Origin: Allorhizocola rhizosphaerae
Lineage (GTDB): Bacteria > Actinomycetota > Actinomycetes > Mycobacteriales > Micromonosporaceae
DNA length: 64,000 nt
Direction of reading: 5' to 3'
Assembly: GCF_003426775.1 (NCBI RefSeq)
Contig: NZ_QJUG01000008.1
Span: 1 to 64,000, forward strand
Shown: piece by piece, positions 7,463-61,833 of the stretch
Layout of the letters: each line of letters begins with the position of its first letter
How positions within the stretch are numbered: the first letter of the stretch is position 1
The notes under the pieces: model-generated
The model's input: the letters and a program-made list of their open reading frames with translations, nothing else
Databases searched by the model: none
What the model was told of the DNA's origin: nothing
Translations under genes and position numbers: made by a program

Positions 7463-7705
7463 CGCATCCACCTGGGGGATCGAAGTTCGTCAGCGGACTG
7501 CCATTCAGCATGGTGGCGGCGGCCGCGCTCGTCAACGCTGCTTGCGGCCTAGCTCGCATGCCAGATGCGGTTGGCGGTCAGCCCACCACGCGGGCGGCCC
7601 GGCCCATGGTTGGCAGGCTCCCCGCGTCTGGTACAACAGCGCGGGAGTCGCCTTCGTTCAGCCATGCTGAGTGTCTGGCCGGCTGCTCAGCAATAAGCCG
7701 GAGCG
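7463..7705. other. Intergenic stretch with a possible LysR terminator
   Basis: No gene is supported in these 243 bases. The only clear structure is a perfect 7-bp inverted repeat TGCTGAG/CTCAGCA with a 14-nt loop (7665-7692), placed just after the minus-strand LysR gene. It could terminate that transcript but has no T-run. The protease promoter should lie at the left end; no convincing -10 box was found. Confidence 0.4.
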
Positions 7706-8575
7706 CTAGCCGCGTGCGTCAATGACGGCCCGCATCGCCGACGCGAAGGCGACGACGGCCGGGTGAGTGGCTCCGCCCTGGCGGTATGCGATCCGCGTCC
7801 GGCGCCGCACGGGCAGCGGCGTCAGCCGCACGCCCTTGGGCGGGTGCTCGGTGGCGAGCTCGGGCACGAGCGACACGCCCTGCCCGGCGGCGACCAGGGC
7901 GAGCACGGTGGCGAAGTCGTCGGCGTGGTGCCGGGCCCTCGGCACGAAGCCCGCCGAGCGGCACACGTGCAGCGTCATGGTGTGGCACAGCGTGCCGGGC
8001 GTGGCCAGAATCCAAAGGGCGTCACGGAAATCGCCGAGTGCGCCGGAGTCTTGCGCGGCCAGATAGACGGTCTCCTCCAGCAGCGGCACGGAGTCCAGGC
8101 GGGAGTCCGGCGGGTCGGGCGCGACGTCGTAATCCTGCAGCAGCCCCACGTCCAGCCGGCGCTCGCGCAGCGCGCCCGGCACGCCGACCGGGTCGAGCTC
8201 GGTCACCATCAGTTCCAGCCCCGGGTGATCGCGGCCGAGTGCGACCAGCGCCGCGGGCAGCAGCGTGCGCACAGCGGTCGGGAAGGCGCCGATGCGCAGC
8301 GGGCCGGACAGCGTGGCCATCGAGGCGAGCGCGGCCGACGTCTGCTCCAGCGCGGCGATCACGACCTCGGCGTGCTGCACGAGCATGCGCCCGGCCGCGG
8401 TCAGCCTGACTCGGCGGCCGGTGCGCTCCAGTAGGGGCATGCGCGCCTCGCGCTCCAATATGGACAGTTGCTGGGACACGGCCGACGGGGTGTAGTTGTG
8501 CGCCTGCGCCACGGCCGCGATGGTGCCGAGGCGGGACAGGTCGCACAGCAGGCGCAATCGATGCACGTCGAGCAT
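7706..8575 (-). CDS. LysR-family transcriptional regulator
   Basis: A 289-residue LysR-type regulator. The N-terminal winged helix (residues 1-60: LGTIAAVAQAHNYTPSAVSQ, then LEREARMPLLERTGR) is followed by a type 2 periplasmic-binding-like effector domain (from about residue 88, GPLRIGAFPT). It is transcribed divergently from the DapA-like gene with only 71 bases between starts, so it most likely controls that gene and itself. No inducer can be named. Confidence 0.92.
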   Translation of the reverse strand: MLDVHRLRLLCDLSRLGTIAAVAQAHNYTPSAVSQQLSILEREARMPLLERTGRRVRLTAAGRMLVQHAEVVIAALEQTSAALASMATLSGPLRIGAFPTAVRTLLPAALVALGRDHPGLELMVTELDPVGVPGALRERRLDVGLLQDYDVAPDPPDSRLDSVPLLEETVYLAAQDSGALGDFRDALWILATPGTLCHTMTLHVCRSAGFVPRARHHADDFATVLALVAAGQGVSLVPELATEHPPKGVRLTPLPVRRRTRIAYRQGGATHPAVVAFASAMRAVIDARG

Positions 8576-57013: not shown

Positions 57014-57986
57014 GGGTGGCACCGCCTGGCTCGGACGTGAGATCGCGAGCCAGGCCCATGCGCGTGGACACGCGGTGACCTGCCTCGCGCGAGGCGAAAG
57101 CGGGACAGTGGCCGAGGGGGTGACCCTGGTCACGGCAGACCGCACACAGCCCGGCGCCTACGGGCGGCTGGCCGGGCGCGCGTTCGACGCGGTGTTCGAG
57201 GTGAGCTGGCAGCCCGGCATGGTGCGCGGTGCCCTGCAGGCGTTGGGCACGCGCGCTGGACACTGGACATATGTGTCGTCGGGCAACGTGTATGCCTCCC
57301 ACTCCGTTGTCGACGCCGACGAATCGGCCCCGCTGCTCGCGCCTACAGCGTTGGAAGCCGTCGATCGCTCGGACTACGGCGCGGCGAAGGTCGCGTGCGA
57401 GCTGGCCTCGCTCTCGGCAGTGGGCGATCGTCTGCTCATCGCGCGGGCCGGGCTGATCGGTGGGCCGGGCGACGCCAGCGACCGCGCCGGCTACTGGGTC
57501 GCGCGGGCGGCACGGGCTCCACGCTCGCCGATGCTCGCGCCCGCCGCGCAGCTGGCGCCCACCCAGGTCATCGACGTGCGCGACCTGGCCGCATGGCTGC
57601 TCGACTGCGCCGAGGCCGGCACCACCGGCACGTTCAACGCGGTCGGCCAGGTCGTCCCGTTCGGGCAGTTCCTGGAGCTGGCGCGCGAGGTGGGCGGGCA
57701 CACCGGCGCGGTCGTGTGGGCCGATCCCCAGTGGTTGCTCGCGCAGGGCGTCGAGCCGTACATGGGCCACGAGTCGCTGCCGCTGTGGCTGCCCGACCCC
57801 GACTATGCGGGCTGGTCGGCCCGCAATGGCACCGCGGCCGCCAACGCCGGTCTGCGCCACCGCCCGCTGGCGCAGCTCCTCGCCGATACACTCGTCTGGG
57901 AGCGCACGCTGGGCCTGGATCGCTCGCGCAGGGCGGGTCTCAGCCCGGCCCGCGAGAGTGAGCTGCTCGCCGGTTGGCCGGTTTGA
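56997..57986 (+). CDS. NAD-dependent epimerase/dehydratase family protein
   Basis: A 329-residue extended SDR-fold protein. The Rossmann start is [25 protein letters not shown] and the active-site YxxxK-like [10 protein letters not shown] follow. The C-terminal half differs from sugar epimerases, and the substrate is unknown. GTG 56997 appears leaderless. Confidence 0.88.
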
Positions 57987-58012
57987 ATTCGCGTCAAGAT
58001 GACCTTTATCCT
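57983..58012 (+). promoter_or_regulatory. Promoter with inverted repeat before NrtR-like gene
   Basis: -35 TTGAAT (57983-57988), 18 bp, -10 TATCCT (58007-58012), 6 bp, GTG 58019. GTCA-AGA-TGAC (57993-58003) lies between the boxes, suited to a repressor. Confidence 0.6.
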
Positions 58013-58018
58013 CGTGCC

Positions 58019-58720
58019 GTGACCAAGCAAGAGGTGCAAGTCGCGGTCGACCCGGTCCTGCTGACCATCCGGGAGGATCAGCTGCAGGTGCTGCTGATCG
58101 TGCGGCGGCACGAGCCGTGCAAGGGGGAGCTGTCGTTTCCGGGCGGGTTCCTGTGGAGCACGGACAACGATCTCGACGCGGCGGCCGCGCGCAAGCTGGC
58201 CACCGAAACCGGACTGGACACCAGCGACATCCACATGGAGCAGTTGCACGCCTACGGCGCGCGTGACCGGGATCCCCGGGGGCGCGTGGTGGCCGTGGCA
58301 TACCTTGCCATCCAGCCCAGCGTGAGCGACCACGCCAGCGACACCGAAGCGGGCCGGCCCAACTGGCATCCGGTCGCGTCACTGCTGTCCGGGCAGGTGC
58401 CGCTGGCCTTCGACCATCGCAGGATCCTCGCCGATGCGGTGGAGGCGGCGCGGCGCAAGCTTGAGCACACCACGCTGGCGACCGCGTTCTGCCCGCCCCG
58501 GTTCACGATGGCGGACCTGCGCCGGGTCTATGAGATCGTGTGGGGCGTGGGCGGGCTGGACCCGCGCAACTTCCATCGCAAGGTGTTGAGCACCAAGGGT
58601 TTCGTCGTGGCCACGCGTGCCAAGCGGCAGCAGGCCAACGGCCGCCCGGCGACGCTCTATCGCAAGGCGTCGGCGCAGGCGGTCACGCTCTATCCGCCGA
58701 TGCTGCGAGAGCGCTATTGA
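58019..58720 (+). CDS. NrtR-like Nudix-domain transcriptional regulator
   Basis: A 233-residue protein. The N-terminal Nudix domain has a degenerate catalytic box (AAAARKLATETGL in place of the REUxEExG consensus), and a C-terminal winged helix includes FTMADLRRVYEIVWG and NFHRKVLSTKGFV. This is the layout of NrtR regulators, which sense ADP-ribose-type ligands and control NAD genes. It probably represses its own promoter. The 3' end overlaps the convergent gene by 38 bases. Confidence 0.88.
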   Translation: MTKQEVQVAVDPVLLTIREDQLQVLLIVRRHEPCKGELSFPGGFLWSTDNDLDAAAARKLATETGLDTSDIHMEQLHAYGARDRDPRGRVVAVAYLAIQPSVSDHASDTEAGRPNWHPVASLLSGQVPLAFDHRRILADAVEAARRKLEHTTLATAFCPPRFTMADLRRVYEIVWGVGGLDPRNFHRKVLSTKGFVVATRAKRQQANGRPATLYRKASAQAVTLYPPMLRERY

Positions 58721-59090
58721 GCTCACTGACCGCAGCGATGGCAAGCATCGGCATATAGAAGAACGCGTCACCGCTTAGCCGGGTCGCGCCGAGCAGCACG
58801 AACGTGACCGCCACGAGCAGGATCAGCGGCTGCGTGACGGTCTGCTGCACCTGTGCCTCGGGCCAGGCCCTGACGATGGCGTCGACCCGGAAGAACCACT
58901 CGCGCAGCGCGCCGATCACCGGCAGCGGCGTGAACCCGGCGATGAGCTGCCCGACGCCGCCGGCGAAGAGCAACTCGTAGGCGTGTGCCAGATCGCCGGA
59001 CGCGGGCCGGCCGAGGTCGCGGCCGGTCAGCGCGGGGGACTCGAGCAGCAAAGCCAAGAGCGGCAAGGGAATCGCCACCCGATGGGGCAA
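58683..59090 (-). CDS. Hypothetical membrane protein
   Basis: A 135-residue protein with hydrophobic segments at both ends (IPLPLLALLLESP; LILLVAVTFVLLGAT; FFYMPMLAIAAVSEL). No family is recognised. Start TTG 59090 or GTG 59078. It overlaps the NrtR-like gene's end by 38 bases. Confidence 0.5.
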   Translation of the reverse strand: MPHRVAIPLPLLALLLESPALTGRDLGRPASGDLAHAYELLFAGGVGQLIAGFTPLPVIGALREWFFRVDAIVRAWPEAQVQQTVTQPLILLVAVTFVLLGATRLSGDAFFYMPMLAIAAVSELNSALAASADRA

Positions 59091-59124
59091 CAGCCGTATC
59101 GCGTCACTGTCACATGCACGTCGT

Positions 59125-59177
59125 AAGTTTGTGACGGCAGCGTAGGATAGTAGCTATCGTCAGTTAGACACAAACTT
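59125..59177 (+). promoter_or_regulatory. Concentric inverted repeats before nucleosidase genes
   Basis: The outer pair AAGTTTGTG (59125-59133) and CACAAACTT (59169-59177) is perfect, and the inner GATAG-TAG-CTATC (59146-59158) has its centre within one base of the outer centre. AT-rich relative to its surroundings; 28 bases before the start codon. Confidence 0.7.
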
Positions 59178-59204
59178 GCGCCTGGCGGAAGGGGAGGCAC
59201 AGCC

Positions 59205-59978
59205 ATGTCTGGGATCTCGATCCTGATTCTCGTGGTGACGCAGGGCGAGCGCGACGCCGTGCTGCGGGCCGTGCGCGCGGCCAACGGCACCGCCCATGAG
59301 CGGCAAACCTTCGGCGATCACGCGGTCTTCCGGTTAGGCAGCCTGGGCGGGGCAGAGATCCTGCTGGCCCAGGCGGGGGAGCAGGGTGGGGTGGGCCCGG
59401 CCGGCACGATGCTGACGGCGGCGTCGCTGCTGCGCGCGTGCCGGCCGGATTATCTGATCCTGGTCGGCATCTGCTACGGCCTGCTCGAAAACGAGCAGCG
59501 CATCGGCGACATCCTGGTGTCGCGCAACGTCCAGGAGCTCGACCATCAACGCGTGGTCGACAGCCCGTCGGGAGCCACGATCGCGATCCGGCGCGGCGCT
59601 CGGGTGCAGGCATCGGTGCTGTTGCTCGATCGGTTCAACGCCGCGACGATCGGGCGGGGTGCGCGGCCGAGCATCCATTTCGGACTCGTGTTGTCGGCCA
59701 ACACCCTCGTGGACTCAAAGCGGTACAGAGAAAATTGCAAGAAGGAGTTCCCGGACGCGATCGGCGGCGACATGGAGGGTGCTGCGCTCTACGCGGCGGC
59801 GGCCAAGGACCGGGTCGATTGGATCGTCGTCAAGGCCATCGCCGATTGGGGGTTCAACAAGACCAACGAGCATCAGGCTCTCGCCGCGGGCAACGCGGCG
59901 CAGTTCGTGGTGCACACGTTGATGATGAGCAGCCTGCCACCGCGGACGCCCCGGCTTGCGGTGACCCTGTGCGACTGA
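59205..59978 (+). CDS. MTA/SAH nucleosidase-like phosphorylase-family protein
   Basis: A 257-residue PNP_UDP_1-fold protein. It has ILILVVTQGERDAVL, the ribose-binding region RPDYLILVGICYGL, and the catalytic GDMEGAALYAAA followed by VVKAIADWG with the proton-donor Asp. It should cleave the N-glycosidic bond of a purine nucleoside or nucleotide. Similar domains are attached to NACHT/STAND proteins elsewhere; here it stands alone. GGAAGGGGAGG is the ribosome site. Confidence 0.82.
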   Translation: MSGISILILVVTQGERDAVLRAVRAANGTAHERQTFGDHAVFRLGSLGGAEILLAQAGEQGGVGPAGTMLTAASLLRACRPDYLILVGICYGLLENEQRIGDILVSRNVQELDHQRVVDSPSGATIAIRRGARVQASVLLLDRFNAATIGRGARPSIHFGLVLSANTLVDSKRYRENCKKEFPDAIGGDMEGAALYAAAAKDRVDWIVVKAIADWGFNKTNEHQALAAGNAAQFVVHTLMMSSLPPRTPRLAVTLCD

Positions 59979-60012
59979 CGAGCAGCACGACACCCACAGG
60001 AGGGGGAGTTTC

Positions 60013-60675
60013 GTGACGACAATCATGCAGCAATGGGAGGTGGCCGTGCCCGCCCGGGTCGTGGTGTTGGGGGTGAAGGAGATCCTTCTCGTGGTCGGCG
60101 ACAGCGCCGCCCACGACGCGGTGAGGCGGGCCGCGGCGCGCGTGCTTGGGGCGGTCCCCCACATCGCCATGGTCCGGGGCGACGAAGCGGCGGAGGCCGA
60201 CGCGCTCATCCGGTCGTTGCGTCCGCACATGGTGATCGGCGTGGGCACGGCCGTCGGCCTCGGCCCGCTGGAGCACCACCGGCCCGGCGACATCGTCGTC
60301 GCCACCGCCCTGCGGCCGGTCGGCAGCCGGTTCGAGCCGCTGGAGACCGGCCCGAGCCGGCTGATGCCGCCGTCGGTGCGGCTGCTGGACCGCTGCACCC
60401 TGGCCACCGTCGGCTGGCGGCGGGGCAGAGTCCACTTTGGACCGATCCTGTCGATGGACCCCGCCGCGGAGTCCGTCGTGGACACGCCCGCCCAGTGCGC
60501 GGCGGCGCTCGACGCGCATCCGGGCGCCATGGCCGCGGAAAACGAAGGCACGGCGGTGTTCGCGGCAGCACAGCGGGCGGGCATCGACTGGCTGGTGGTC
60601 AAGGCCGTCGGCGGCACCAGCGATCCGGCCGCCGAGTTCGCGATGCACGTGGTGAAGGCAAGCTCTTTGGTTTGA
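60013..60675 (+). CDS. Degenerate nucleosidase paralogue
   Basis: A 220-residue relative of the preceding protein. Aligning regions: RPHMVIGVGTAVGL against RPDYLILVGICYGL; VHFGPILS against IHFGLVLS; AENEGTAVFAAA against GDMEGAALYAAA; WLVVKAVGGTSD against WIVVKAIADWGF. The Asp of the last motif is missing, so it is probably inactive alone. GGAGGGGGAG lies five bases before GTG 60013. It may form a complex with the upstream enzyme. Confidence 0.75.
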   Translation: MTTIMQQWEVAVPARVVVLGVKEILLVVGDSAAHDAVRRAAARVLGAVPHIAMVRGDEAAEADALIRSLRPHMVIGVGTAVGLGPLEHHRPGDIVVATALRPVGSRFEPLETGPSRLMPPSVRLLDRCTLATVGWRRGRVHFGPILSMDPAAESVVDTPAQCAAALDAHPGAMAAENEGTAVFAAAQRAGIDWLVVKAVGGTSDPAAEFAMHVVKASSLV

Positions 60676-60693
60676 CGACGCGGCCGGCCGGCC

Positions 60694-61833
60694 TCAGCGG
60701 GGGATGAGGTCGGCCGCTATCTGCTCCCGGATCTCGTCCTGCACGTCCCAGACGTTGACGTTCATGCCGCCGATGACCCGTTCACCCTTCATCCAGTACG
60801 CGATGAACTCACGGTTGCCGACGTCCCCGCGGAACTCGACCCGGTCGTATCCACCCGGCTCGACAAAGCCCGAATACTCCATGCCGAGGTCGTACTGGTC
60901 GCTGAAGAAGTACGGGATCCAGTCGTAGGACACGTTCTTGCCCAGCATGGCGCGTGCGGCGGCCTGGCCGCTGCGGCGCGCGTTTTCCCAGTGCTCGACC
61001 CGGATCCGGGCCCCGGTCAGCGGGTGCTGCCAGTTCGCCACGTCACCGCACGCGAAGATGTCCGGATCGGACGTGCGCAGATCGGGCCCGACCAGCACGC
61101 CGTTGCCGACCGCGAGCCCCGCCTGCTGGGCCAGCTCGACGTTGGGCGCCACACCCACTCCCACGATCACGAGGTCGGCGGCCAGCACGGAGCCGTCGTC
61201 GAGGAGCACTGACTCGTCCTCGATCGCGGCGACGGCACGTCCAAAGTGGAACATCACGCCGTGCGCCTCGTGCAGGTCGCGGAACACGGTGGCCAGCTCG
61301 TCGCCGAGCACCGTGCGCAGCGGGAGCCTGTCCTGCTCGACCACGTTTACGCTGGAGCCGTAATGCCTTGCGGCCGCGGCGGTTTCCAGGCCGATCCAGC
61401 CCGCGCCGACGACGACCACCTGCGTGCCCTGCTGCATGTCGGCGCGAAGCTGGACGCTGTCGGCGAGCGTGCGAAGGTAGCGCACGTGCGGCAGGTCGCC
61501 GCCCGGCACGTCAAGCCGCTTGGGGCCGGCTCCCGTTGCCAGCAACAGCTTTTCGTAGCCGAGCACGGTGCCGTCGGCCAGGGTCACGGTGTGCCCGGCC
61601 GGGTCGAGCGACATTGCGGCCGTCCCGAGGTAGAGGTCCACGTCGTCGGGCACGTTGACGTAGAGCGATTTACGATCCTGATTTCCTATGAGGTACCCCT
61701 TGGAAAGCGGCGGTCGCTCGTAGGGCCGCTCCGGCTCGGCTCCGATCATGGTCAGCGGGCCGGTGAAGCCTTCGGCGCGCAGCGTCTCGGCCGCGTTGGC
61801 GCCGGCAAGCGACGCCCCAACGATCACAAACAT
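60694..61833 (-). CDS. Ferredoxin reductase-type FAD oxidoreductase
   Basis: A 379-residue NAD(P)H:ferredoxin/rubredoxin reductase of the Rieske-type oxygenase class. FAD site FVIVGASLAGANAAE, NAD site VVVVGAGWIGLETAA, and the second FAD motif SDPDIFACGDVANW, plus a C-terminal reductase domain. ATG 61833 has GAGG six bases upstream and lies two bases after folE, so they are cotranscribed. Its electron acceptor is not in the window. Confidence 0.92.
   Translation of the reverse strand: MFVIVGASLAGANAAETLRAEGFTGPLTMIGAEPERPYERPPLSKGYLIGNQDRKSLYVNVPDDVDLYLGTAAMSLDPAGHTVTLADGTVLGYEKLLLATGAGPKRLDVPGGDLPHVRYLRTLADSVQLRADMQQGTQVVVVGAGWIGLETAAAARHYGSSVNVVEQDRLPLRTVLGDELATVFRDLHEAHGVMFHFGRAVAAIEDESVLLDDGSVLAADLVIVGVGVAPNVELAQQAGLAVGNGVLVGPDLRTSDPDIFACGDVANWQHPLTGARIRVEHWENARRSGQAAARAMLGKNVSYDWIPYFFSDQYDLGMEYSGFVEPGGYDRVEFRGDVGNREFIAYWMKGERVIGGMNVNVWDVQDEIREQIAADLIPR

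Follow-up and report, generated by a model that had tools for sequence, protein, structure and literature searches.

A predicted Nudix-regulated nucleosidase and its degenerate paralogue in Allorhizocola rhizosphaerae

Genes A and B: an intact and a dismantled active site

In this work we describe two adjacent genes, A and B, together with the regulatory gene and sequence features that surround them, in a 64,000-nucleotide stretch of the genome of Allorhizocola rhizosphaerae, a member of the Micromonosporaceae (contig NZ_QJUG01000008.1, positions 1 to 64,000; hereafter the window). The features considered are as follows:

57987 to 58009, unstranded: predicted operator box 1, ATTCGCGTCAAGATGACCTTTAT
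58019 to 58720, plus strand: NrtR-type Nudix and winged-helix regulator
58683 to 59090, minus strand: hydrophobic open reading frame of 135 aa, coding by GC3
59122 to 59180, unstranded: imperfect inverted repeat CGTAAGTTTGTG...CACAAACTTGCG, overlapping box 2
59153 to 59175, unstranded: predicted operator box 2, GCTATCGTCAGTTAGACACAAAC, in the A-B promoter region
59205 to 59978, plus strand: gene A, standalone PNP/MTAN-fold nucleosidase, 257 aa, ATG start
59998 to 60003, plus strand: Shine-Dalgarno-like AGGAGG, 9 nt 5' of the gene B GTG
60013 to 60675, plus strand: gene B, PNP-fold paralogue and putative pseudoenzyme, 220 aa, GTG start

Both proteins exceed the Pfam gathering cut-off of 25.1 bits for PF01048 (66 bits for A, in which it is the sole domain above cut-off, and 34.9 bits for B) and align with each other at 33% identity over 179 residues (E 3e-17), which bears out their placement in the nucleoside-phosphorylase family by the first-pass annotation. 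Gene A carries the equivalents of MTAN residues Glu12, Glu174 and Asp197 as E15, E191 and D214, the latter two being the active-site Glu and Asp by alignment to solved MTANs, along with a Gly-rich loop at G61 and the Met-Glu pair M190-E191. All five positions are invariant or nearly so in alignments of its clade, with E15, G61, E191 and D214 invariant or more than 90% conserved. An AF2 model of A (pLDDT 95) finds MTANs as its best Foldseek matches (TM 0.70-0.75 by query length). A is very likely to be a catalytically intact, active nucleosidase. Gene A shares with MTANs the fold and the Glu / Met-Glu / Asp pattern, and MTANs head the PDB matches for A and B alike; A differs from them in its clade, a separate one made up largely of fused domains, and in falling below the NCBIfam equivalog cut-offs for MTAN (62.9 against 169 bits), futalosine hydrolase (47.3 against 124.7) and AMP nucleosidase (20.9 against 364.7). 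Its substrate would be an adenine nucleotide or nucleoside.

Gene B, unlike MTANs, is without the catalytic residues. The AIADWG of A has become AVGGTSD, placing Gly at the position of Asp197 when B is aligned to E. coli MTAN, as the first-pass annotation had noticed, and the damage extends further than it described: profile alignment places Ala33 opposite A's E15, most of profile positions 32-64 (the beta2-beta3 hairpin and the Gly-rich loop) have no counterpart, the Met of the MEG motif is replaced by Asn177, and in the full alignment about a dozen residues of the Asp loop are deleted. With the equivalents of Glu12 and Asp197 absent, only the ribose-side Glu174 is retained, as E178. At least one of E15, E191 and D214 is missing in 5 of 110 compared domains; gene B alone among these lacks both E15 and D214.

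These losses have not been accompanied by a loss of coding character. The deletions in B are multiples of three and leave the reading frame intact, its position-specific GC is 0.76/0.52/0.91, and its synonymous codon log-odds of 0.43 per codon are on par with those of its neighbours; the +1 frame gives 0.16 and an overlapping open reading frame at 60033-60707 gives -0.16. A chance open reading frame is excluded by the in-frame homology to A across most of B's length. The structural invariants G78, G82, W193 and K197 are retained, and an AF2 model of B (pLDDT 84, pTM 0.83, residues 1-19 disordered) has MTANs as its nearest solved structures (Foldseek, TM about 0.6-0.7). We take gene B to encode a folded pseudoenzyme, in all likelihood inactive as a glycosidase, and the earlier picture of an active-looking enzyme encoded beside an inactive-looking one stands. 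That B has changed rather than died, with Asp204 (four residues further along than the missing Asp) or another residue supplying acid catalysis toward a new substrate, could draw on the retention of E178 and on the presence of an Asp so soon after the strand, but E15, the Gly-rich loop, the Met and the Asp loop have been lost together, and in the B model a helix begins at residue 204 itself where about ten residues separate strand and helix in A. We regard this explanation as very improbable.

No ortholog of B was found in a pattern scan of genome contigs, in 201 genomes of the family, or in 298 of the order and 395 of the class, nor among the plasmids and phages searched; the version of the locus with a dead twin was seen here only among the searched genomes. 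The best partial match, a 666-aa PNP protein from another family of the order (41% over residues 61-208), also has Gly in place of the Asp. Pairs of PNP genes in G009 (convergent), G114 (a cluster) and Thermogemmatispora were considered as analogues of the two-gene arrangement and set aside, as both members seem active or the second comes from another PNP clade. The first-pass annotation had proposed a heteromeric complex of the two proteins and named co-occurrence of their genes in relatives as a test; this expectation failed, and the result counts against a conserved two-subunit complex while leaving a lineage-specific partner possible.

With no ortholog found in the genomes searched, B could instead be an expendable remnant. 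On this view an A-like domain was duplicated in tandem, the copy lost its active site and now drifts, its frame surviving through shortness of time, and A and the Nudix protein do the work. Beyond the absence of orthologs, such a history would suit the long branch of B (1.93 changes per site, with its placement in the tree not resolved) and the losses of catalytic residues elsewhere within A's clade. However, neutral drift at 1.9 changes per site should have left stop codons or frameshifts, and B instead has an intact frame with deletions in threes, coding GC and codon statistics matching those of its neighbours, conserved G78, G82, W193 and K197, and a confidently predicted fold. On this evidence a relic appears unlikely, although a more serious contender than an altered enzyme.

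The 34-nt gap between A and B, with AGGAGG ahead of the GTG of B, suggests that the two genes are carried on a single transcript. On the other side of A, the 135-aa open reading frame runs divergently and has a common intergenic region with it. This frame has no family match and no homologue in the fetched loci, and was for that reason set aside as a member of the system; it may nonetheless share operator control with the promoter region of A.

The Nudix regulator and its predicted operators

Immediately upstream of A lies a gene whose product combines a NUDIX domain (48.5 bits) with an NrtR winged helix (52.1 bits), the domain pair that characterizes NrtR-type regulators, and whose relatives of solved structure in the PDB are AraR and NrtR. 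The open reading frame was listed from a TTG at 57974; GTG 58019 was taken as the likely start because a predicted operator occupies the gap ahead of it. Its Nudix catalytic signature is degenerate (RKLATETGL against RELxEETGL), and REL-x-EE is kept in 20 compared relatives, which suggests that the window protein should act purely as a sensor. The NrtR proteins characterised elsewhere repress their own genes until ADP-ribose releases them, and M. smegmatis NrtR no longer has hydrolase activity (PMC6800001).

This regulator, the most informative of the neighbours, and the predicted operator ahead of A were missed by the first-pass annotation. NrtR-type Nudix genes occur about 1.5 times per genome (61 family genomes), and among 33 A-like PNP places in genomes having them, we found one within 5 kb of the PNP gene at five family loci besides the window, against 0.09 expected (Poisson P 5e-8). 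Independent fetches contributed cases in Nonomuraea, Sphaerisporangium, Paractinoplanes, Asanoa and one uncultured actinobacterium, and the neighbourhood recurs in at least 12 other actinobacterial loci; several other PNP types also adjoin this Nudix family. The host genome itself holds a second such unit (G000:C480:17875-19441, locus L193), in which the Nudix gene and a PNP gene distantly related to A are divergently transcribed.

Regions upstream of these Nudix genes in other loci, PNP-linked or not, have in common the palindrome CTTAnTGTCAnnnTGACAnTAAG. A position weight matrix for this 23-bp operator was built from 27 sites, 26 from other genomes and one from contig C480, with none from the window. 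Its best site in the 64-kb window (20.1 bits) is box 1, inside the 32-bp gap between the stop of the upstream gene at 57986 and the Nudix GTG at 58019, and its second best (18.9 bits) is box 2, which ends 29 nt before the ATG of A; the third-best site scores 9.8 bits. A score of 18.9 bits was reached anywhere in only 1 of 200 block-shuffled 64-kb windows, and 1.2 Mb of loci contain 37 sites of at least 17 bits, against 6 in the reversed-sequence control. Boxes are present in 15 of 16 Nudix-PNP loci, often paired at 34-bp spacing, these loci partly overlapping the training set; in some (L134, L105) they lie directly ahead of the PNP gene itself. The C480 unit has a box between its two genes (31.5 bits, a site that is also in the training set), and a strict-consensus scan of the host genome returned this unit and one likely chance site only.

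Given that matches lie ahead of both genes, Nudix and A, the Nudix protein is very probably the direct regulator of its own expression and of A-B, with box 1 as the predicted site of autoregulation. The imperfect inverted repeat overlapping box 2 was considered as a stand-alone operator, a 12-nt inverted repeat upstream of A, and rejected: the left arm makes a poor match to the box, and we therefore claim box 2 alone. The half-site score of this arm puts it no higher than the top 0.25% of positions, and the arm may, weakly, be what is left of a second box, set at the 34-bp distance found in other loci. Paired boxes 33-34 bp apart occur in L082, L108, L113, L114, L117 and L119, a separation of about three helical turns that suggests two repressor dimers on the same face of the DNA. 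Relative to the NrtR regulators of NAD metabolism (PMC6800001), the window protein is alike in its domains, in the predicted palindromic site upstream of its own gene and, for M. smegmatis NrtR, in the lost hydrolase signature; it differs in its operator type, CTTAnTGTCAnnnTGACAnTAAG being unlike GTTTTCGA-N7-TCGAAAAC, and in its target, which is a PNP operon rather than nadABC.

Relatives of A and the context of conflict systems

For the clade of A, 80 named loci were kept of 190, drawn from Actinomycetota, Chloroflexota, Cyanobacteriota, Planctomycetota, Bacteroidota and Pseudomonadota. Most actinobacterial relatives are proteins of about 620-770 aa in which the PNP domain makes up the C-terminal third and the N-terminal part has hydrophobic stretches judged by sequence; outside the actinobacteria it is often N-terminal in long proteins. 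Fusion partners across the clade are long, hydrophobic, HEAT-like or unidentified domains, and a standalone homologue close to A is found in G030 (44%). Gene A matches the PADLOC models 'Effector PN-superfamily' (23.9 bits) and 'PDC-M60C', a candidate model (41.9 bits), as do its relatives. Among four other PNPs of the host genome used as controls, two gave no match, one a weak match of 20.8 bits and one, within a 1145-aa frame with an NTPase-like part, a match of 87.9 bits; since the 20.8-bit match comes from an ordinary PNP, these models are not fully specific. The multidomain relatives and the PADLOC matches together agree with the earlier suggestion that A's nearest relatives are PNP domains of conflict type.

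Several features of these relatives deserve mention in their own right. The PNP proteins of loci L105-L141, about 640 aa long, share at their N-termini a domain that contains hydrophobic segments and a CxxxxDCxGRPxTW-like loop, with no Pfam match in the one tested; this domain is probably the membrane sensor part of a PNP effector. On Rhizobium etli plasmid pA, a protein deposited as hypothetical (RHECIAT_PA0000107; L073, 7185-8735) is a PNP fusion, the N-terminal part of which resembles that of the Micromonosporaceae locus L055 and in which the match to A continues beyond the annotated end. BTAD-NB-ARC-TPR (SARP/STAND-like) regulators adjoin the Nudix-PNP pair in two genera (L075, 5308-8145; L076, 9217-12168). 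In L076, from Dactylosporangium vinaceum (G114), a degenerate PNP gene (7561-8361, minus strand) in which MEG has become EPNDG is divergent from the Nudix gene with a box between them, and active PNPs lie 18-30 kb away. Further catalytic losses are seen in L106 (Asp to Asn), L205 (Asp to Gly) and L119, such that inactivation recurs around A's clade.

Inactive versions of enzymes recur in known conflict systems, where they have been proposed to serve as dominant negatives or decoys (PMC7159879), and in CBASS and Detocs the PNP effectors break down ATP (PMC10952713; PMC11249213). Taken together, these precedents make a role for A and B in stress or the phage response possible. Our literature search found no papers on PNP pseudoenzymes in defence and none describing the Nudix-PNP pairing, most subscription literature lying outside its reach. 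Gene A resembles the effector and signal-generating PNP domains of MoxR-vWA, TRADD-N and death-domain systems (PMC7159879, PMC8195603) in that its clade lies within large proteins and matches PADLOC PN-superfamily models, and departs from them in being standalone, in being paired with a pseudoenzyme and in its surroundings: no STAND, MoxR-vWA, SLOG or two-component partner was found in the 64-kb window. The Cap17 (CBASS) and Detocs nucleosidases, which convert ATP to adenine and ribose triphosphate, come with a SLOG-type PF18178 partner and system genes, both absent from the A-B locus. Also comparable are the Nudix-HTH regulators of ADP-ribosylglycohydrolase conflict systems (PMC9503650), where a Nudix sensor is also tied to nucleotide-processing conflict genes, the difference being that the controlled genes here are a PNP-fold nucleosidase and its dead paralogue.

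The genes around A and B in the window are those for RecD2 helicase, an epimerase-like protein, the Nudix protein, a reductase and FolE, and the neighbourhood is not a defence island. A rival reading is a purely metabolic unit, in which the Nudix protein would sense ADP-ribose or an NAD breakdown product and control a salvage nucleosidase acting on nicotinamide riboside, MTA or similar, with B as a regulatory subunit and no part in defence. The targets of characterised NrtR proteins, NAD synthesis or sugar use (PMC6800001), would fit such a role, as would the housekeeping-like immediate neighbours (RecD2 helicase, reductase, FolE) and the several other PNP types beside this Nudix family. However, the clade of A consists mostly of fusions and includes relatives near proteins typical of conflict systems, namely BTAD-NB-ARC-TPR (L075/L076), PP2C and FHA-ABC (L077), which have no equivalent in the window itself, and A scores far under the equivalog cut-offs of MTAN, futalosine hydrolase and AMP nucleosidase. 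A metabolic unit is accordingly possible though doubtful, and we lean slightly toward defence or stress, rather than salvage, as the role of the locus.

A pair resembling toxin and antitoxin was also weighed, in which A would drain the cell of an essential adenine nucleotide unless silenced by B, its dedicated inhibitor. The adjacency of the genes, the ribosome-binding site ahead of B and the nature of B as a folded, non-catalytic paralogue of A are compatible with this arrangement, as is the toxicity to the cell of ATP-cleaving PNP effectors (PMC10952713). Yet the enzyme gene comes first, the promoter is regulated and no B accompanies A's relatives, indicating no obligate antitoxin; such a pair seems to us distinctly improbable, though less so than a repurposed B.

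A proposed model for a probably Nudix-controlled unit

The reading that we put forward, and hold to be about evenly balanced, is that of a Nudix-repressed unit in which an active A is tempered by a non-catalytic B. This three-gene unit would be headed by an NrtR-type Nudix-winged-helix repressor whose Nudix chemistry has seemingly been lost, such that it senses only. The repressor would occupy palindromic boxes ahead of its own gene and ahead of the A-B operon until an ADP-ribose-like nucleotide signal released it from both, allowing A and B to be produced. A would then act as an N-glycosidase of the MTAN/PNP fold that strips an adenine nucleotide or nucleoside of its base. Its paralogue B, shortened in frame, has retained the fold and the ribose-side Glu, is predicted to lack catalysis, and would most likely restrain or tune A, either by replacing the second A subunit in the pair or by holding a ligand. 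That B works through contact with A is conceivable, at a likelihood somewhat below that of the unit as a whole.

The locus is a variation on known kinds of element, in which an NrtR-type circuit would govern a conflict-type nucleosidase that is accompanied by a dead twin specific to this lineage. More tentatively, it could represent a new signalling module of actinobacteria, an autoregulated circuit made of a Nudix repressor and a PNP-fold nucleosidase, where a signal frees the repressor and the nucleosidase alters the nucleotide pool; here the sensor would be non-hydrolysing and the nucleosidase a heteromer of live and dead subunits, the dead one binding nucleotide and gating the active one.

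In phage defence, PNP-fold domains are known to act as effectors that deplete the cell, and the control of many actinobacterial ones is little characterised. The recurrent Nudix-PNP pairing and its defined operator offer for these a concrete regulator, a DNA site and a probable class of signal. If the proposed model is true, the window would provide a clean natural case in which pseudoenzymes, namely a sensor without enzymatic activity and an inactive second nucleosidase, have been recruited to regulate an enzyme that destroys nucleotides.
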